A stretch of DNA of 64,000 nt from Bremerella sp. P1 (GTDB taxonomy: Bacteria; Planctomycetota; Planctomycetia; Pirellulales; Pirellulaceae). The translations under genes and the position numbers were made by a program. Under the pieces are notes generated by a model that made no database searches, was not told the origin of the DNA, and worked only from the letters and a program-made list of their open reading frames with translations. The stretch lies in the NCBI RefSeq assembly GCF_028748185.1, contig NZ_CP118164.1:2604001-2668000 (forward strand), written 5' to 3'. Of this stretch, positions 53,971 through 64,000 are shown in pieces; the stretch's first letter is position 1, and each line of letters opens with the position of its first letter.

Positions 53971-54070
53971 CCCTCCATGGTGATTGGCCACCGCGGCGAT
54001 TGCACACTGAACTGAGGTTGCCTGATCACGAATTCAAACCCCACGATGACGTTTGTACCGATTGAAACTA

Positions 54071-54844
54071 TTAGTCGGCTGCGAGCGGGTCTTCCTTGGG
54101 CTGTGGTGATTCCGCTTGCTGAGGCACGGTGCGCTGCTTCGCGTCTCGCAAAAGCACATGTCCGCCCAAACCAAGATACAGAGACATGAATCCGCAAATC
54201 TGGATCACCAAGCCAATGTCCCTCATGGAATCTTGATAAATGCCCATGAAAACCGCACAGACGAGGAACAGCGACAACATGATGATGACGAACCAGCGGA
54301 TCGACGCCGTCCGCGGGCCAACTAGCATGAACCCGGCCAATGGGATCGGAACGGCCGAGCAGATGAAGAAAAAGAGATACGTCAGAAACCATCCCCAATC
54401 GACATCCATCTGAACAACGACAGCACACACGACGGTCATCAGCGTCATTAAGCCGAAAAGGACCGACAGAGAAAACTGCACCTGCATGCCAACGAAAACC
54501 ACACGGTATATCGCCACCGGAGCGATTCCGAAAAACAAGGTCACTAACAGGATGACAAAGATCCGATCAAAGTCCGCACCTCTTTCATGCAACGAAATGG
54601 TAAGCCCAAAGAAAAACGAGATGACCAGTGCCAACAGGACGGACGGCCACAGGGAAACGTCTCGCATTAGCAAAATGAGGCCGAGCGCCATCTGCCCGAG
54701 CGAAAGCCCCAGAATGCACGTTGTCAGGAAAATGGTTCTGGGACCTAGCCCAAACCCGATTTCCACCGCTGCCAGTACGATGTCTAAGCAAAGCGTAAAG
54801 AGCATCAAGATGAGGATTGACCGGTGATCCCTGGCTATGTTCAT
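54071..54844 (-). CDS. Eight-helix membrane protein, array member 1
   Basis: 257 residues, unknown function. First gene of the four-gene minus-strand row, divergent from aroE. Eight helices, signature MQVQFSLSVLFGLMTLMTV in the middle, polar Gln/Pro-rich tail ending PKEDPLAAD. No catalytic residues visible. Confidence 0.72.
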   Translation of the reverse strand: MNIARDHRSILILMLFTLCLDIVLAAVEIGFGLGPRTIFLTTCILGLSLGQMALGLILLMRDVSLWPSVLLALVISFFFGLTISLHERGADFDRIFVILLVTLFFGIAPVAIYRVVFVGMQVQFSLSVLFGLMTLMTVVCAVVVQMDVDWGWFLTYLFFFICSAVPIPLAGFMLVGPRTASIRWFVIIMLSLFLVCAVFMGIYQDSMRDIGLVIQICGFMSLYLGLGGHVLLRDAKQRTVPQQAESPQPKEDPLAAD

Positions 54845-54974
54845 GTTCCAAGCATCTCATTTTATTCAGTCCGATGCACCTACTTGCCGCAGGATCACGT
54901 TGCAAAACTTCTTGCTGCCCGGCAAAATTGAGCCTGACAATTCCCTCCTCAGGACACACCGACGCGCGCACGTA

Positions 54975-55823
54975 ATGACTCACGAATCACTTCAGGAAAT
55001 CGTCTGCTGCATGGGGCAGCCAGTGGCTGGAAACCCATCTCAGTTCATGATGGAACGGGCTTTTGCTGCCGCTGGTTTGGATTGGCGATACCTTACCTTA
55101 GAAGTCTCACCCGAACACCTTCCGGCTGCCGTTGCCGGTATGAAAGCGATGGGGTTCCGCGGCGGAAACTTCACCATTCCGCACAAGGTCGCTGTGATCC
55201 CTCACTTGAAACGCTTGACCGAAGCGGCCGAACTGATGGGAGCGGTCAATTGTATTTTCGCGGAAGAAGATGGCTTCGTTGGTGAGAACACCGACGGCAA
55301 GGGTTTCGTTTCCGCGCTGAAAGAAGTCACCGAGCCTGAGGGCAAAAAGGTGGTCCTGTTCGGTGCCGGCGGAGCTGCCCGAGCCATTGGGGTTGAACTG
55401 GGTTTGAACAAAGTGGCCAGTATCGACATCGTCAATCGTGATGCAGGTCGCGGTCGTGATTTGGCGAATCTTCTATCGCAGCGGGTCGGGATCGAGTCGA
55501 AGTGGATTCCTTGGAATGGAACACACGATTTGCCTGAAGATGCCGATCTGGTGATCAATGGAACGAGCATTGGTTTGAACGATGCTTCGGCCATGGTGCC
55601 CGTGAACCCAGATACGTTCCGCGAGTCGATGCTGGTGGCGGACGTGATCTTCAATCCACCCCACACGGCGTTTCTGCAAGCTGCGCAGGATGCCGGATGC
55701 CAAACGATTGACGGACTGGGAATGCTGGTCAATCAAGGTGCGATCGGTTTCAAGATTTGGACCGGCATCGAGCCTGACCAAGCTGTCATGCGAGAAGCGT
55801 TGGAAGAGTATCTGGGAATCTAA
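54975..55823 (+). CDS. aroE: Shikimate dehydrogenase AroE
   Basis: 282 residues. NADP-dependent reduction of 3-dehydroshikimate in aromatic amino-acid synthesis. Seen: N-F-T-I-P-H-K71 with the catalytic Lys, AVNC (N92), ENTDG with catalytic D107, nucleotide loop F-G-A-G-G-A-A-R, and GLGMLVNQGAIGF at the end. Odd: the substrate-binding S-x-S of the usual HSxSPxxHN segment is replaced by VAGNPSQFMME at residues 17-27. ATG 54975 gives the family length; the frame is open to 54837. Confidence 0.92.
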   Translation: MTHESLQEIVCCMGQPVAGNPSQFMMERAFAAAGLDWRYLTLEVSPEHLPAAVAGMKAMGFRGGNFTIPHKVAVIPHLKRLTEAAELMGAVNCIFAEEDGFVGENTDGKGFVSALKEVTEPEGKKVVLFGAGGAARAIGVELGLNKVASIDIVNRDAGRGRDLANLLSQRVGIESKWIPWNGTHDLPEDADLVINGTSIGLNDASAMVPVNPDTFRESMLVADVIFNPPHTAFLQAAQDAGCQTIDGLGMLVNQGAIGFKIWTGIEPDQAVMREALEEYLGI

Positions 55824-55829
55824 CCCCAT

Positions 55830-55865
55830 AAAAAAAACGAGGCCCCAGTCTTGCCCGGGGCCTCG
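55830..55865 (-). terminator. Terminator between aroE and the superoxide dismutase gene
   Basis: CGAGGCCCC/GGGGCCTCG stem with a 10-base loop; on the minus strand it is followed by a run of T (AAAAAAA at 55831-55837), so it mainly serves the dismutase gene, but the stem could stop both transcripts. Confidence 0.85.
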
Positions 55866-55916
55866 CTCGAATCATTCCGAACAATCACTGTCGTTCGGTC
55901 ATATTTTCATCTTTAC

Positions 55917-56498
55917 TTACTCGCTAGGCTTGGCAATGCCAATCACGCCAACACCGACGCGAGGACCTGCGTCACCCGATGGTTGGCTCTTCAAGTCGTC
56001 GGCCTTGGCATGCACGACGATCGAACGGCCCAGCACGATGTGCAACTTCAGACCTTCGGCCTTGGTATCGATCTTGGCAACGCCACTTTCGTCAGCCGTG
56101 ATGTTACCCAAGTCGCCAGCATGGCTTTCGGAACCCGGGGCACCATGTTCGTGGCCATCGGGATTGAAGTGACCACCCGCGGCGGTACCGTCGGCCTTGG
56201 TCAGATCGCCGAATTCGTGAATATGGAACCCATGTTCGCCTGGTTCCAAATTGATCACTTTACCGGTCAGGTGAACGTAACCGTCTTCCTGCTTCAGCAT
56301 AATGACGCCCTTCACGTCGCTACCGCTGGTGGAAGCTAAAACAGCGACGGCAGCCGTGGGCAGATCCACCATTTCGTGGGAATGCTCATGCGCGTGTTCT
56401 TTTTCGTGTGCGTCTTCTTTGGCACCTTCGTCTTGGGCCATGACCAGGCCAGGAATTGCCAATAGCAGAATGCTTAGAGTCAGGATGGTCGATTTCAT
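55917..56498 (-). CDS. sodC: Secreted Cu/Zn superoxide dismutase
   Basis: 193 residues. Signal peptide (ILTLSILLLAIPGLVMA), a His/Glu-rich stretch HEKEHAHEHSHE (31-42) that could load metal, then the dismutase fold: H92 and H94 in HGFHIHEFGD, H110 and H118, H126 and D129 in HAGDLGN, H163 in VVHAKADD and R180. Both disulfide cysteines are absent (no Cys in the mature protein; Val183 stands where Cys is usual). Converts superoxide to peroxide outside the cytoplasm. Confidence 0.92.
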   Translation of the reverse strand: MKSTILTLSILLLAIPGLVMAQDEGAKEDAHEKEHAHEHSHEMVDLPTAAVAVLASTSGSDVKGVIMLKQEDGYVHLTGKVINLEPGEHGFHIHEFGDLTKADGTAAGGHFNPDGHEHGAPGSESHAGDLGNITADESGVAKIDTKAEGLKLHIVLGRSIVVHAKADDLKSQPSGDAGPRVGVGVIGIAKPSE

Positions 56499-56697
56499 AT
56501 TGTTGTCTTCTCCTGCGGGGCGATTGGTTTATAGCTTCGGTCGGCGAGAACCGTTCTACCGACGTCATTACTCTTGAGTGAGTCGTTGCGCCCATTGTTA
56601 CGTATTGAGATGCGCCAATCCACCAAGGGTGAAAACTTTGTCGCTGCGTCACAGGCAATCTCAATTGATCATGCACGACACTTGGGCGGATGAAACA

Positions 56698-57288
56698 TCA
56701 CGCAGCTTGCTGGACTTTTTCGGCCACCAGTTGTTTCATGCGGGCGGCAGAATCGCGCGCAAACTGTTTTTGAAGTTTTCGCATGTACGGATGGAGTAGC
56801 CAGACGATCCACCGTTTAGGTCGCGAGAAAGCCAGAATGTCGTACCAGACATCGCCATATTCGTCCATTTCGACGAGAAAGCGTTCCTCGCCGGTTTCCA
56901 TATGGGCCGGAAGTGTCCCATACGCAAACCCAAACCTGGGCGTGTTCAGCCGGTCATCGATCACGTACACAATGCGTGCCGCATTGAGCCAATAGAGACC
57001 GCCTGCCTTACCGATCACGCACACCGATTCTCCTTCCCGGATCGTGGTGGTAATCGGCCTGGCCGAGACCCAGCCCAGTTCGAATTGCTGCCACTTCCCG
57101 AGGGCCTCTTTCGCCCTTTCAAAGGTACCGATCCCGTGACCAAGCTTCACGCGGGTATGGTCAACTTGGAAACCTTGGGGAGGCGTGCTGTTAGTTTTCC
57201 CCTGATGACAATAAGAATACTTCCGCTCGCGCTGCGTACTGAGAAACCGCTCGACGGAGGTAGCATCAGGTGAATGAAAGCGAAACAT
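56698..57288 (-). CDS. DUF1990 family protein
   Basis: 196 residues. The layout ...YSYCHQGKTN, LGHGIGTFERAKEALGKWQQFELGW, VCVIGKAGGLYWLNAARIVYVID, FGFAYGTLPAHMETGEERFLVE matches DUF1990, a small SRPBCC-like family of unknown function often found with NAD-binding epimerase-like proteins; such a gene lies divergently 106 bp away. No signal peptide. Confidence 0.85.
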   Translation of the reverse strand: MFRFHSPDATSVERFLSTQRERKYSYCHQGKTNSTPPQGFQVDHTRVKLGHGIGTFERAKEALGKWQQFELGWVSARPITTTIREGESVCVIGKAGGLYWLNAARIVYVIDDRLNTPRFGFAYGTLPAHMETGEERFLVEMDEYGDVWYDILAFSRPKRWIVWLLHPYMRKLQKQFARDSAARMKQLVAEKVQQAA

Positions 57289-57394
57289 TGCGGTTCTAAC
57301 TAGTCTCTGAGAAAATACTTCCGATCAAATGGTGAGAACCGTAAAATCGAAAACCAAGCAACGTCGATTGGCCCGATTTTTACCCTAGCACGAT

Positions 57395-58324
57395 ATGACC
57401 TCTGACGATTACCCCTTCAACAACCGACAGAAAACGGTGCTCGTAACCGGTGCTACCGGCTATGTGGGGAGCCGCCTTGTCCCCCGAATTTTACCTCACT
57501 ATAAGGTTCGCTGCCTGGTTCGCGACCCAAGCCGACTGGACAAGGCAATTCGGGATCAAGTTGAGGTCGCTCAAGGGGATGTCATGCATTCCCACTCGCT
57601 TCAAGAGTGCTTGCAGGGGGTCGACGTCGCGTTCTATCTCATCCATGGCATGGGTTACGGGGACGACTTTCAGAAGAAGGATCGTATCGCGGCCGAGAAC
57701 TTCGTTGCTGCGGCCAAAGAAGCCGGCGTCTCGCGCATCATTTACCTGGGCGGCTTGGGGGACGATGCGGACCCAGATCTTTCGCCCCACCTGAAGAGCC
57801 GTCACGAGGTGGGTCAGATTTTTCTGTCCAGCGACGTGCTAACCATCGAACTGCGCGCCTCGGTGGTACTCGGACCGGGTAGCCTCTCCTACGAACTCAT
57901 CCGTTCCCTGACGCAGCGACTTCCCATGATGATCTGTCCGAGATGGCTGGCGACGCCAACGCAGCCGATCGCGACTGAGGACGTTCTGGCGTACCTGGAG
58001 GAATCGATCGAGCTGCCCCTGGAGAAAAGTGAAGTCTTCGAGATCGGCAGCCAAGACGTGGTCACCTATGGCGGGTTGATCAAGATGTACGCGAAGGAAC
58101 GAAACCTGACACGGATCCTGGTCAGCGTTCCGCTGCTGACGCCGTACCTTTCAAGCCTTTGGCTGGGACTCGTCACACCGACCAGCGCCGACGTCGGACG
58201 GCACTTAATCGAAGGGCTCAGAAACCCAACTGTCGTGCGTGACGATCGTGCTCGAAAAATCTTTTCGCATCAGCCAATGACCACCCAAGAGGCCATTCAT
58301 CAGGCAGTACAACAAGAAGCATAG
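57395..58324 (+). CDS. NAD(P)-binding atypical SDR/NmrA-like protein
   Basis: 309 residues. Rossmann start V-L-V-T-G-A-T-G-Y-V-G-S-R (15-27), CLVRDPSRL, GDVMHSHSL, AFYLIHGMGYG and YLGGLG blocks fit the extended/atypical SDR group. These often pair with DUF2867 or DUF1990 proteins, as seen here with the divergent neighbour. No catalytic YxxxK in the usual position, so reductase activity is unsure. Confidence 0.88.
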   Translation: MTSDDYPFNNRQKTVLVTGATGYVGSRLVPRILPHYKVRCLVRDPSRLDKAIRDQVEVAQGDVMHSHSLQECLQGVDVAFYLIHGMGYGDDFQKKDRIAAENFVAAAKEAGVSRIIYLGGLGDDADPDLSPHLKSRHEVGQIFLSSDVLTIELRASVVLGPGSLSYELIRSLTQRLPMMICPRWLATPTQPIATEDVLAYLEESIELPLEKSEVFEIGSQDVVTYGGLIKMYAKERNLTRILVSVPLLTPYLSSLWLGLVTPTSADVGRHLIEGLRNPTVVRDDRARKIFSHQPMTTQEAIHQAVQQEA

Positions 58325-58839
58325 CTGGCAAATTTCCTATTTCGGCCAGCAACGCAAGCATCGACTTGTGAGCATTGAAAACCCACTGCTGTCTGAAAAC
58401 GGAACAGTTCGCACCACAAACTCGCCTCGATGTTTCGATTTCGCAACATGCGTGTTGGTCGGGCAACGTCCAGTTCGATCGGACGATGCATTGGGGCAAC
58501 TTTTCCTTCTGGTTAAGCTAGCTGGTAGCAACCTTTCCTAATGCGTTCACTTTGCCAGAAAAGAGGATTAGTTCGTCGGCAATTAGCAACGAAATCTTGA
58601 AAGAATTTCGTTTGATGTAAGACTAGATGAGGTATGCTTTTCCAGCGGAAAACGATCATGGTGGTAAACTTTTATGTTTGCCAGGCAGCACGATTTTTGC
58701 GAGTCTAATAAGACTCACACGCGTGGAAGAGGCGCCCCGTTTAAGGGAGTAGAACCGATCTGGAGCGAGATGGATTTCGTCGGCGGAATAGGCCTCGGTG
58801 GTCGTATTCGATAACCAACTTGGTCAGGAAACTTGAACC
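58325..58839. other. Intergenic region upstream of the YTV protein
   Basis: No gene seen. A 6-bp perfect hairpin GAGTCT-AATA-AGACTC at 58701-58716 lies in the probable leader. AT-rich segments near 58600-58640 could hold the promoter but no single pair of hexamers stands out. Confidence 0.5.
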
Positions 58840-60261
58840 ATGAAACTCGCTCATCTCAAAAAGGTATTCATCGCCCCGGCGCTGTTAAGCGTAGTGGGAA
58901 TGAGTATCGCGCCAACGCCATCGTTCGCCCAATGTGGCGGATGTGGGCCATCGTACAAAGTCGTCACTCAGACCGTCTATGAGGAACAACCCGTAACCGC
59001 CTACCGGACGGAATATGAACGGGTTGAAGTTCCCAAAGAGGTCACCACCTATCGCCCCGTCTGGGAAACCCAGAGTCGCGAGCGAACCGTGACCGTTGCT
59101 AAGCCGGTTACGGAAACTTCCGAGCGTGAAGAACGCTACACCGTCATGAAGCCGGTCTGGAAGGAACGCGTCGAAGATCGTAGCTACAATCAGACGCGCT
59201 ACGTTACCGAGACCGAAATGCGAGAACAGGTAAACACCGTTCTTCGCCCCGTGACCGAAACGCAGTACTACGATCAACAAACGGTCGTGCGTCGTCCGGT
59301 TACCGAAACCGTGATGCAGAACCAAACGGTCACCATGTATCAGCCGCAAACCGTTTGCCGTACCCAGTACGTCGATCAGGGCGGTTATCAGACCACGCAG
59401 GTCTATACGCCTGGTCCGACTCGGAACCGTTTGCGTTGGACCACCGGTCAAACGTATTTCGATCCAGCCACTGGTCAGTACCAATACGACCGTGGTGGTC
59501 TGCACTGGATTCCTGAACAACGCCCTGGCAGCGTGAGCAACGTCACCAACTACGTTCCTAACGTGGTGGCTCAGCAAGTTCCGGTTACCCAGTACGTGCC
59601 TACGCAGGTCACGCAGCAAGTTCCTGTTCAACGTGTTCGTTACGAAGACGAAGTCCAGGTTCGCCGCATCCCTTACAACGTGACTCGCTACGAACAAGTC
59701 CAGCAAGTCCAGCAGATTCCGGTTACCGTTCAGAAGCCTGTCACCGAGCGGGTCGAGAACATGGTTACCGTGAAGTACTGCGATTGGGTTCAGGAAGAAG
59801 TCGTTCGTAAGGTGCCGATCAGCACGACCAAGATGGTCTACGAACAACGCGTTGAACCTTACGAAGTGAAGGTCCAGAAGTGGGTCGCAGAGACGAGCAC
59901 GGTGACTGAAACCAAATTGGTTCCCAAACGGGTTCAGTACACCTATACCCGTCGTATCCCACGTACGGTGACCATGCGTGTTCCTCTAGATTCTTACGGC
60001 AACCCAGTGTACTCGGCTCCACCAGCGACTTCGCGTCGTGTTATCCTGCCACCGACTACGACTGGTCCGACGCTCGCTGCCCCAAGTAGCGTGGTCGAGA
60101 AGCCGCCAACGATCATCCAGAGAAGCATCGTGACACCTTCCGAACCACCACCGGCTCCAAGCAAAGAAGAGGAATCGGCTGATTCGGAAGATAAGGCTAC
60201 CAAGGACGAATCGACCACGTCCCCCAGCGACGATGACCCTACCGGTCAACCGAAGCTGTAA
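58840..60261 (+). CDS. YTV-type repetitive envelope protein
   Basis: 473 residues. Signal peptide then CGGCGP, followed by about 350 residues extremely rich in Tyr, Thr, Val, Gln, Arg and Glu, with repeated segments like RPVTETxxxxQTV, YxxVEVPKEVTTYRPVW, QQVPVTQYVP and YTRRIPRTVTMRVP. This composition fits the YTV domain of planctomycete cell-surface proteins (described in Rhodopirellula). The C-terminal 90 residues are Pro/Ser/Glu/Asp rich and probably unstructured. Likely a structural cell-envelope component. Monocistronic with its own terminator. Confidence 0.82.
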   Translation: MKLAHLKKVFIAPALLSVVGMSIAPTPSFAQCGGCGPSYKVVTQTVYEEQPVTAYRTEYERVEVPKEVTTYRPVWETQSRERTVTVAKPVTETSEREERYTVMKPVWKERVEDRSYNQTRYVTETEMREQVNTVLRPVTETQYYDQQTVVRRPVTETVMQNQTVTMYQPQTVCRTQYVDQGGYQTTQVYTPGPTRNRLRWTTGQTYFDPATGQYQYDRGGLHWIPEQRPGSVSNVTNYVPNVVAQQVPVTQYVPTQVTQQVPVQRVRYEDEVQVRRIPYNVTRYEQVQQVQQIPVTVQKPVTERVENMVTVKYCDWVQEEVVRKVPISTTKMVYEQRVEPYEVKVQKWVAETSTVTETKLVPKRVQYTYTRRIPRTVTMRVPLDSYGNPVYSAPPATSRRVILPPTTTGPTLAAPSSVVEKPPTIIQRSIVTPSEPPPAPSKEEESADSEDKATKDESTTSPSDDDPTGQPKL

Positions 60262-60284
60262 ACGCTACGTTCAAGTTGGTTATC

Positions 60285-60317
60285 AAAAAAGGCCCGTCGC
60301 AAGACTGGGCCTTTTTT
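60285..60317 (+). terminator. Terminator of the YTV gene
   Basis: AAAAAAGGCCC/GGGCCTTTTTT, an 11-bp stem with an 11-base loop and terminal T-run, 24 bp past the stop codon; symmetric, so able to act in both directions. Confidence 0.9.
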
Positions 60318-60498
60318 CATGGGCCAACCGCAAATTCGATCTTTTGAGATCTAATAACGCGAGGTGTGTCTGTTTCAAATTACCTAGCGTACGTAGAATA
60401 AGATTTCTTATCCTGCCTCATCTATCTCGGGGAAATATGAGCAGGGGGCAACTTCTTTCCCTAGGCAACTAATTTGTTGTTCTACTTTACGGTCAGGC

Positions 60499-62889
60499 AT
60501 GAACTTCTTCTTGAACTTATTGGATACGTCCGACTTTCCCCAGCGTTGGCATTGCGGGGAATGGTCCGCAGGGCATGGCTGGCTGCACATTCTCTCGGAT
60601 ATTGGCATCTGGGCAGCTTACTTTGCGATACCTGGACTGCTCGCTTACTTTCTCTCGCAGCGGAAAGACCTCCCCTTTCGACGCGTGTTCCTGCTGTTTG
60701 TCGCGTTCATCATGCTGTGCGGCTTGACCCACCTGATGGACGCCACCATCTTCTGGTGGCCCGCCTATCGGCTGTCTGGCCTGTTAAAACTCTCCACGGC
60801 AATCGTTTCCTGGGCGACTGTCGTGGCGATTGTCTACAACATTCCGGAGGTCTTGCGGCTGCGAAGCCCAGAAGCACTGGAGCGTGAGATCGAAGCTCGC
60901 AAGCAGGCCGAACAAGCCCTTCGCGAGTCGAACGAAGTCCTCGAGCAGCGCGTTCAAGAGCGGGTTGAGCAGCTTGAAAAAGCCAATGCAGAAATCAAAG
61001 AACGCGACGCCCGTTGGCGTAAGTTCGCCAGCTCGAACATCATCGGTGTTGGCCTGGCCGATGCGGACGGAAACTGGTTGGAAGTCAACGGCGAACTGCT
61101 ACGCATGCTTCGCTGTTCGGAAGAAGAGTGGCAAAGCGAAGGCCTCCGCTGGTACGACATGACACCGCCTGAATACTTGCCGCGGGATGTCGAAGGAATC
61201 GAGACCGCCGACAAAGAAGGCGCATGCCCAGCCTACGAAAAGGAGTACATCACCAAGGACGGAACACGCGTACCGATTACGCTGGGCTACACCCCAGTCG
61301 AAGATCGCCCCGGGCAGTACATCTGCTTTGTGCTCGACCAATCGCGACTCAAGGAAACCGAACAAGCCCTCAAGCAGAGTCAGGCTGAGTTCTTCCAACT
61401 TGCCGACGCCATTCCCCAGATGGCCTGGATGACCCGCGCCGATGGCTACGTCGATTGGTTCAATCATCGCTGGTACGAGTACACAGGTCTGACCCAGGAA
61501 GATTGCCTTGGCTTGAATTGGAAGCAATGTATCGATCCGGATGATTTGCCTCAGGTACAAGCGGCTTGGGAAAAGAGCATCGAGACTGGGGAGCGACTCG
61601 ATATTGTGGCCCCTATCCGAGGTGCCGATGGAATCGTGCGTCCCTTCCTGACGCGTGCCCTGCCGTTGAAGAATGACGAAGGGGAAATCGTGCGTTGGTT
61701 TGGAACAAACACCGATATCAGCGAGCAGCAGCAGATCCAGGAAGAGTTACGAACCGTCGCCGCTCAGCTTTCTGACGCCGATCGTAAAAAGGATGAGTTT
61801 CTAGCAACCTTGGCACACGAACTTCGTAATCCACTCGCTCCGATCCGAATGGGCTTAGAGCTGATGAAAATGGCGGGCGATGACCCCGAACTGCTGGACG
61901 AAACTCGCGAGACGATGGAACGCCAAACCAAGCAGTTGATCTCGCTAGTTGATGATCTGTTGGACGTTTCTCGAGTGACGCGTGGCAAGCTGACTCTTCG
62001 CAAAGCAGACGTCAAGATATCTGATGTCATCAAAAGTGCGGTCGAAACTTCTCAGCCACTGATTGAAGACTCGGAACACTCGCTCGAGGTGGTCAACAAC
62101 AACGACATCACAATCCATGCCGACCCGAATCGGTTGGCCCAGGTCGTCTCGAACCTTTTGAACAATGCCGCCAAATATACGCCTGACGGTGGAAAGATTA
62201 AGCTTTCGGTTGATCAGCCAGACCCCAATCACGTTGCCATCCATGTGCAAGACACCGGAATTGGGATACCAGCCGACATGATCGATAGCATCTTTACGAT
62301 GTTTACCCAAGTCGATCGTTCCATGGAACGTCGTTTCGCAGGCCTAGGCATCGGCCTGACCCTCGTTAAATCGCTGGTCGAGATGCACGGAGGAACGGTC
62401 TCGGTAACCAGCCAGGGGCAAGGCAAAGGAAGTGAGTTCACAGTTACCTTGCCGGTGCGAGAGGAAGATCAACCGTCTCAGAACAAGGATCTGCCGACCG
62501 AGGGTTTCTCGCTGAAGCAAGGTAAGCACCGCGTTCTTGTTGTCGACGACAATAAGGCCGCTGCCGAAATGCTCAGCAAAGTAGTCAAGATGCTCGGCAA
62601 CACGGTCGAGATGGCCGAAGATGGACAGCAAGCGATTGAAGTCGCTCAGCAGTTCCAACCCGAAATCATTCTCATGGATCTTGGCATGCCCAAAATGAAC
62701 GGCTATGAAGCCGCTCGGTACATTCGCCAACAAGAATGGGGAAAGGACATCCTGCTGATTGCACTCACCGGCTGGGGGCAACAGGAAGACCGTGACCGTA
62801 CCAAAGAGGCTGGCTTCGATCATCACCTGGTCAAACCGGCCGAACCTGCGGAAATCCAACGGATCATCAACCAAGGTAGGGATAACTGA
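60499..62889 (+). CDS. Hybrid histidine kinase with ethylene-receptor-like sensor
   Basis: 796 residues. Residues 28-125 form three transmembrane helices matching the ETR1 ethylene-binding domain: D34, Y41, I44, P45, I71, C74 and H78 align, at a constant offset of nine, with ETR1 D25, Y32, I35, P36, I62, C65 and H69, including the copper ligands Cys and His. Then a coiled coil (about 130-170), two PAS domains (about 170-285 and 290-415), the HisKA box with phosphorylated H440 (AHELRNPLAP), ATPase N and G boxes (NNAAKY, DTGIGIP, GLGIGLTLV) and a receiver domain with D727 and the Lys of KPAEP. No output domain. Confidence 0.92.
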   Translation: MNFFLNLLDTSDFPQRWHCGEWSAGHGWLHILSDIGIWAAYFAIPGLLAYFLSQRKDLPFRRVFLLFVAFIMLCGLTHLMDATIFWWPAYRLSGLLKLSTAIVSWATVVAIVYNIPEVLRLRSPEALEREIEARKQAEQALRESNEVLEQRVQERVEQLEKANAEIKERDARWRKFASSNIIGVGLADADGNWLEVNGELLRMLRCSEEEWQSEGLRWYDMTPPEYLPRDVEGIETADKEGACPAYEKEYITKDGTRVPITLGYTPVEDRPGQYICFVLDQSRLKETEQALKQSQAEFFQLADAIPQMAWMTRADGYVDWFNHRWYEYTGLTQEDCLGLNWKQCIDPDDLPQVQAAWEKSIETGERLDIVAPIRGADGIVRPFLTRALPLKNDEGEIVRWFGTNTDISEQQQIQEELRTVAAQLSDADRKKDEFLATLAHELRNPLAPIRMGLELMKMAGDDPELLDETRETMERQTKQLISLVDDLLDVSRVTRGKLTLRKADVKISDVIKSAVETSQPLIEDSEHSLEVVNNNDITIHADPNRLAQVVSNLLNNAAKYTPDGGKIKLSVDQPDPNHVAIHVQDTGIGIPADMIDSIFTMFTQVDRSMERRFAGLGIGLTLVKSLVEMHGGTVSVTSQGQGKGSEFTVTLPVREEDQPSQNKDLPTEGFSLKQGKHRVLVVDDNKAAAEMLSKVVKMLGNTVEMAEDGQQAIEVAQQFQPEIILMDLGMPKMNGYEAARYIRQQEWGKDILLIALTGWGQQEDRDRTKEAGFDHHLVKPAEPAEIQRIINQGRDN

Positions 62890-62902
62890 CCGAGGCTGAG
62901 GT

Positions 62903-63901
62903 CTACTTTGCTTGATGCAGCATCAGCTCGTTGAACGAGTCAATCACATCCGCCGGGTCCACACCATCCGCCAAAGCGGAGACGTACTCGTGACGAGGAT
63001 TATCAATTTGCTCGCGCCACTCGTGGGTGCCGTTGGGGAAAATGTGGTTGTGTCCCTGGGTGACTAGCTTCCAAGGATGGCCTGTCCCGCGTGCGGCGAC
63101 CATCACGGCAATTTGATCGGCACTATGTCGATCGTTCACCTTCCCGCCGAAATAGAGTTCATAAACTCGGCGAACCGGATTGTCTTCGGGCAATTCCGTC
63201 AGACGCTTTCCAGTAGAAATCAGACTGGCAAATTGACCGCCGCCGGTGAAGGTGATCTTGGTTGGCCACTTCTCTATAGCAATCACCGTTGAATCAGCAT
63301 CCGGTTTGAAGTTGCCCCACTTACCGGGATCCAAATCGGCTGGATAACGGCTTCCCATGCACACACAATGAGCCACCTTCTGTTTCACAAGCTGCTGCCC
63401 GGTTAATGTACTGATGTCATCACCTGTAGACTCAATCAAATAGCGCAGGTTGGTCAGGTCTCCCACCGTCAGAATCGTCACACTACCATCAGCTTGAGCG
63501 GACAGAATCTTGCGATACAGCTTGGTCGCGTCCGGGGCATCTTCATACGTGGGGCAATCATGCGGGAACTTCTTGGCGATCTGCTCAGCGTATTTCGATT
63601 TCTGCTGAATGCCGGCCTTTCCTTTGGGCACACCAATCGGCAGATCCGGTCGACCGTAATAGGTATTGATGGCATCGGTACACGGAGCAGACCAAGGGTA
63701 CTTGGCCGAAACCATCGTACCCAGAAGTTCGATCTCTCCGCGATCGGCCAGCGCGTGGAGCATCGCCAGGGCAGCCGCATCGTCGCAGTCGCTTTCCATG
63801 TCGGTATCGAACAGGATTTTTAGAGGCGCGCGTGGTTCTGCCGAGAAGCTCATACCTGGAATACTCGCAAAACATAGTATCACAAAAAGAAGCCGATACA
63901 T
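62903..63901 (-). CDS. Secreted nucleoside hydrolase
   Basis: 332 residues. Signal peptide MYRLLFVILCFASIPGMSFSA, then the calcium-binding and catalytic FDTDMESDCDDAAALAML block of inosine/uridine-preferring nucleoside hydrolases, with later SVTILTVGDLTNL and MGSRYPADLDPGKWGNF segments. Releases bases from ribonucleosides, here outside the cytoplasm, suggesting nucleoside scavenging. Convergent with the hybrid kinase gene by 13 bp. Sequence downstream to 64000 shows nothing further. Confidence 0.88.
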   Translation of the reverse strand: MYRLLFVILCFASIPGMSFSAEPRAPLKILFDTDMESDCDDAAALAMLHALADRGEIELLGTMVSAKYPWSAPCTDAINTYYGRPDLPIGVPKGKAGIQQKSKYAEQIAKKFPHDCPTYEDAPDATKLYRKILSAQADGSVTILTVGDLTNLRYLIESTGDDISTLTGQQLVKQKVAHCVCMGSRYPADLDPGKWGNFKPDADSTVIAIEKWPTKITFTGGGQFASLISTGKRLTELPEDNPVRRVYELYFGGKVNDRHSADQIAVMVAARGTGHPWKLVTQGHNHIFPNGTHEWREQIDNPRHEYVSALADGVDPADVIDSFNELMLHQAK

Positions 63902-64000
63902 GGCGGGTCTTCCTGAACTTGCGATAGCGAAAGTGTGCTGAAAGCGGAAGGGACTTTAGTCGTCTACAACAACTAACAAGGGGCCATGTGATGTAGTCCA

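Follow-up and report, generated by a model that had tools for sequence, protein, structure and literature searches.

An ETR1-type ethylene-binding domain in a hybrid histidine kinase of the planctomycete Bremerella sp. P1

Does a planctomycete carry a true counterpart of the plant ethylene receptors and, if it does, is there anything exceptional about it? The question is raised by an open reading frame at 60499-62889 on the plus strand of a 64,000-nucleotide stretch of the Bremerella sp. P1 genome (the window). The frame starts with ATG, has no internal stops and encodes 796 amino acids, which an initial annotation had read as an ethylene-binding domain (EBD) fused to two PAS domains, a kinase core and a receiver. 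Pfam finds the EBD, kinase core and receiver in that order. Residues 26-121 (60574-60861, +) match ETR1_N (PF25487) with 125 bits against a curated cut-off of 27, HisKA (residues 431-495) and HATPase_c (residues 542-654) make up the kinase core (residues 431-654; 61789-62460, +), and the receiver spans residues 679-790 (62533-62868, +). As to the two PAS domains, there is a strong one at about residues 297-411 (61387-61731, +); the other is more weakly supported, the PAS_4 profile matching two stretches of the kinase. No GAF domain was found in the kinase by the Pfam scan. The positions that we take to be the acceptor positions of kinase and receiver are all filled, as checked letter by letter: H440, the phospho-acceptor of the kinase core, and D683/D684, D727 (the receiver phospho-acceptor), T757 and K779. 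With HisKA, HATPase_c and a receiver all present, acceptor residues included, the protein is by its domain content a hybrid histidine kinase.

The case for an ethylene receptor began with seven residues of ETR1 that were said to recur at a constant offset of nine. All seven letters are where they were claimed to be: D34 (60598-60600, +; ETR1 D25), Y41 (60619-60621, +), I44-P45 (60628-60633, +), and I71, C74 and H78, the counterparts of ETR1 I62, C65 and H69 (codons I71 to H78, 60709-60732, +). BLASTP of the kinase against residues 1-134 of Arabidopsis ETR1 aligned 110 columns at 35% identity (E 3e-18). The alignment begins at kinase residue 32 and passes through the seven residues ungapped, which confirms the offset of nine there; a three-residue gap follows kinase residue 94. 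A search of 14 control genomes with the ETR1_N profile returned no match. The 125-bit profile match, the ETR1 alignment and the silent controls together argue that the domain identity is not due to chance, and with ETR1_N above its cut-off and the seven residues in place, the domain is by sequence a member of the ETR1-type ethylene-receptor family. C74 and H78 are the proposed Cu(I) ligands.

An EBD model built from a 49-row alignment shows three long helices (residues 24-54, 61-83 and 90-120) with a mean pLDDT of 93.5, in agreement with the three-helix N-terminal domain first described, and the three are predicted transmembrane helices. On helical wheels, five of the seven residues (D34, Y41, I71, C74 and H78) deviate by no more than 36 degrees from the conserved side of the helix they sit in, and I44 and P45 by no more than 55 degrees. 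A conserved side as strong was seen in 17, 829 and 1136 of 5000 shuffles for helices 1, 2 and 3, respectively, in a test that is partly circular, as the seven residues are themselves conserved. The idea that C74 and H78 face the same helix core as D34 and Y41 is consistent with these wheels, the conserved side exceeding the shuffles in helix 1 but not in helices 2 and 3. The model would not settle the geometry of the site, because models of the ethylene-binding domain, by AlphaFold and others, differ from one another even in the case of ETR1, with neither kind in full agreement with the EPR data (PMC13012798). No solved structure matched the EBD by sequence or by fold (best E 2.4), and a full-length fold predicted without an alignment was disregarded (mean pLDDT 47).

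How special are the seven residues? We compared 110 distinct relatives that had been found with patterns from the window protein or fetched from its family, leaving aside the window's own copy. All seven are kept in 101 of the 110; singly, I44 is kept in 110, D34, Y41 and H78 in 109 each, P45 and C74 in 108 each, and I71 in 104. The helix-3 lysine of ETR1 (K91) has K97 as its counterpart in the alignment; position 97 is lysine in 62 relatives and arginine in 45, and threonine in the ortholog of another genome of the genus (G532). A salt bridge from a conserved aspartate to a conserved lysine has been described for the ethylene-binding domain (PMC13012798). Ahead of helix 1, and not covered by the ETR1 alignment, is an RWxCGxW stretch (60544-60564), in which R16, W17, C19, G20 and W22 each occur in at least 109 of the 110 relatives. 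Because the relatives were picked by patterns or family of the window protein, we regard this stretch as a trait of its nearer kin, not of the whole ETR1_N family. C19 is the single N-terminal cysteine and a candidate for the disulfide of a linked dimer; it is found in 109 of the 110 relatives and is glycine in the G532 ortholog.

Of 149 genomes sampled from the host's family, 41 have an ETR1_N match, which exceeds the cut-off in 40; for the phylum, the count is 42 of 392. A scan of a genome collection gave 106 relatives, the best 80 of which come mostly from Planctomycetota and Bacteroidota, with one each from Chthoniobacteraceae (Verrucomicrobiota), Brasilonema (Cyanobacteria), Ignavibacteria and Vampirovibrionales. 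In a tree of EBDs (n=99), built on few columns and with many poorly supported forks, the window domain groups with the orthologs of its own genus and then with Planctomycetota. With planctomycete versions this common and the seven residues this widely kept, the window kinase is not unusual, and we rejected the notion that its conservation is.

Pfam architectures were obtained for 41 hand-chosen relatives; a weak match to the type VI secretion protein Tse3 among them was taken as chance. The EBD also occurs apart from a kinase. In Maribacter sedimenticola (L112:7989-10408) and Gramella sp. AN32 (L106:7989-10412) it is a stand-alone protein of 159 amino acids; 9-10 bp further on comes the gene of a PAS histidine kinase that has a hydrophobic N-terminus of its own, and after that a receiver gene. 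By gene content, these loci are split, three-gene ethylene-receptor-like clusters. A Bacteroidota bin encodes an EBD protein of 190 amino acids without a kinase domain (L062:7986-8558), and the next open reading frame downstream is not a kinase by sequence.

The best-known relative, Arabidopsis ETR1, has the same order of EBD, kinase and receiver, and its seven residues align ungapped with those of the window kinase. We take ETR1 to be located in the ER and to have a GAF domain where the window kinase has PAS. The excerpted text of PMC6682694 gives ETR1 two N-terminal cysteines, whereas the window kinase has one, C19; the same text gives a single one to the cyanobacterial proteins SynEtr1, GeiEtr1 and GeiEtr2. 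It also describes GeiEtr1 and GeiEtr2 as having an EBD with the seven residues. By the same account, GeiEtr2 is like the window kinase a hybrid kinase that has PAS and a C-terminal receiver next to its EBD, and in all three proteins a GAF domain separates the EBD from the kinase, unlike in the window kinase as seen by Pfam. When expressed in yeast, the first 130 residues of SynEtr1 bind ethylene (PMC6682694, excerpted text), as do residues 1-130 of AzoEtr1, which has the same seven residues (PMC11819568). From the excerpted text of the latter paper, AzoEtr1 of Azospirillum brasilense resembles the window kinase in its N-terminal three-helix EBD, the seven residues, PAS and histidine kinase, but is 525 amino acids long and has one PAS domain, no receiver and a regulator gene that overlaps the kinase gene. 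These published proteins bear out the remark in the initial annotation that ethylene-receptor-like proteins are known in bacteria, and the excerpted text of PMC7700396 states that many proteobacteria and cyanobacteria carry genes for such proteins, with widely varied output domains. A search of the open-licence literature found no study of a planctomycete ethylene receptor; PMC4558063, in its excerpted text, cites ETR1 solely to illustrate signalling in plants.

Does the window kinase have a partner next door? Upstream lies a gene for a YTV-domain protein (58840-60261, +; Pfam and synteny), a domain typical of planctomycetes; a planctomycete host is also indicated by the nearest named relatives in the EBD tree. 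The gene is present in all nine genomes of the genus, each of which has three lower-scoring matches elsewhere; it is a syntenic neighbour, with no functional link implied. Between it and the kinase gene, sequence reading and folding reveal an intrinsic-terminator-like hairpin with a U run (60285-60317, +; -19.9 kcal/mol, z -5.9, 0 of 200 shuffles as stable), which a simple terminator scan did not report. On the other side is a convergent gene for a nucleoside-hydrolase-like protein (62903-63901, -; 31.7 bits in Pfam, below the cut-off of 34.2), whose stop is 13 bases from the kinase gene and which is found there in only some genomes of the genus. Since the hairpin separates the YTV gene and the downstream gene is convergent, neither is a likely operon partner, and we rejected that idea; the layout suggests that the kinase gene is transcribed alone. 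No sigma-70-like promoter was found in 58300-63200 (0 against 2.4 in shuffles), and no RNA family reached its gathering score in 54000-64000. A gene for a Cu/Zn superoxide dismutase (Pfam Sod_Cu, 134.9 bits) is located about 4 kb upstream on the minus strand (55917-56498).

The same genome (G000) has a second EBD kinase (L122:9138-10724), of 528 amino acids, with EBD, PAS and kinase domains and no receiver. The gene of a 143-residue single-domain regulator overlaps its end by four bases, the layout reported for AzoEtr1 in the excerpted text of PMC11819568, and an open reading frame of 347 residues with a further receiver comes after the regulator (cluster L122:9138-12202, G000:C1:4173137 onward). 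Split-type kinases are also present in G043 and G114, each with an overlapping regulator, and G533 and G532 have kinases that belong to this type by sequence. G129 has a third type of EBD kinase with 924 amino acids and a receiver. In G140 the second EBD gene is an open frame of just 111 residues that breaks off after helix 1 (L118:9769-10071, around G140:C1:5109843), apparently a decayed copy.

We asked how often EBD proteins have a regulator gene within 300 bp downstream, using a receiver profile seeded with 15 sequences (the window's receiver and 14 neighbours that were later counted). After exclusion of six proteins that ran into contig ends and of two truncated genes (L118, L129), 92 closed proteins remained, the window's included. 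An adjacent regulator was found for 4 of 34 proteins with a fused receiver (none for 30) and for 35 of 58 without one (none for 23; Fisher p 3.5e-6). For Planctomycetota, sorted by hand from titles and kinship, the counts were 4 of 33 fused and 9 of 10 unfused (p 1.1e-5), and once near-copies were removed, 22 of 26 fused versus 1 of 7 unfused had no adjacent regulator (p 0.001). These p-values are too small, because the proteins counted share ancestry and some of the sequences had gone into the profile; the pattern is in part phylogenetic. Given that proteins with a fused receiver tend to lack an adjacent regulator gene, and vice versa, the receiver of the window kinase is probably the built-in form of the neighbouring regulator, standing in for the regulator gene.

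Within the genus, six of nine genomes (G000, G090, G140, G534, G533 and G532) have the window kinase gene, each time with the same YTV gene next to it. In G043, G114 and G129 the YTV gene is there and the next genes follow directly; tblastn with the kinase gave nothing across the surrounding 6.2-6.5 kb (L170, L171, L172), and the sole EBD genes of these genomes are elsewhere, on another branch of the EBD tree. The kinase gene occurs in closer as well as more distant members, and its identity drops roughly in step with that of its neighbour, a pattern more in keeping with an old gene that has been lost two or more times than with one newly acquired. All six orthologs, the window's included, keep the seven residues. 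In five ortholog pairs, several with synonymous sites saturated or nearly so, pN/pS is 0.09-0.22 for the whole gene and 0.08-0.25 for the EBD, near the values of the other domains. The gene is under purifying selection.

Each of the nine genomes, one of them 68% complete, has at least one EBD gene, and each of the three types is missing from some. This raises the possibility, which we hold tentatively and with more doubt than confidence, that the genus maintains ethylene sensing through interchangeable EBD kinases (fused-receiver, split kinase-plus-regulator, and the third, longer type). The frequencies of the three types alone would give nine of nine with a probability of 0.28, and the claim that the genus keeps an EBD more than by chance was dropped. 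If that is so, ethylene would be a relevant signal for heterotrophic bacteria without a known plant link.

What, then, would the window kinase do? We consider it likely that it is a bacterial sensor of the ethylene-receptor type, in which Cu(I) and ethylene binding is signalled from H440 to D727. The three-helix membrane domain would most likely hold Cu(I) via C74 and H78 and bind ethylene or a similar small olefin. Binding would alter the autophosphorylation of H440 in one direction or the other, with the PAS domains tuning the response, and the phosphate would then go to D727 in the kinase's own receiver. As this receiver has no attached output domain, the phosphate would most likely move on to one of the genome's HPt proteins, and so to some physiological output, or else the receiver would act as a brake on the kinase. 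There are 14 HPt matches in the genome, none of them tied to the window kinase, and an HPt partner is a guess.

The proposed copper ligands could also mean that the domain is primarily a sensor of Cu(I) or of copper status, for which ethylene is not the natural signal. C74 and H78 are indeed almost invariant, and the superoxide dismutase gene upstream could be read in terms of copper, but nothing ties that gene to the kinase, and the six neighbouring proteins that were scanned lack copper-transport and copper-resistance domains. Moreover, the counterparts of the ethylene-binding residues of ETR1 (D34, Y41, I44 and P45) are kept just as well as the copper ligands, and AzoEtr1 and SynEtr1 bind ethylene. 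We therefore think a copper sensor unlikely. The binding of ethylene by these two bacterial relatives, and a binding site made of the residues of ETR1, likewise speak against a natural ligand that is some other small unsaturated or diatomic gas (acetylene, CO or isoprene, for example), with ethylene incidental. That reading gains something from the residues of the RWxCGxW stretch, which the nearer bacterial kin share outside the ETR1-aligning part, and we rate it as rather improbable.

A sensor domain that is vestigial, with the PAS domains as the real inputs, might be suspected from the absence of the gene in three of nine genomes and from the shrunken EBD gene of G140. A vestigial EBD would hardly evolve as slowly as the other domains or retain all seven residues in every ortholog, and we give this explanation very little credence. 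The reading as an ethylene-receptor-type sensor remains the one we favour.

The answer to our opening question is that, judged by sequence, the window kinase is a genuine, well-conserved and ordinary member of a known ethylene-receptor-type family that is widespread in bacteria. What is known of this family is unchanged by the finding. Its worth lies in the material it offers: natural pairs of genomes with and without the gene inside one genus, and a single genome carrying both receptor layouts. If the kinase binds ethylene, the role of ethylene as a microbial signal could be tested genetically in a planctomycete too, alongside the cyanobacteria and Azospirillum.
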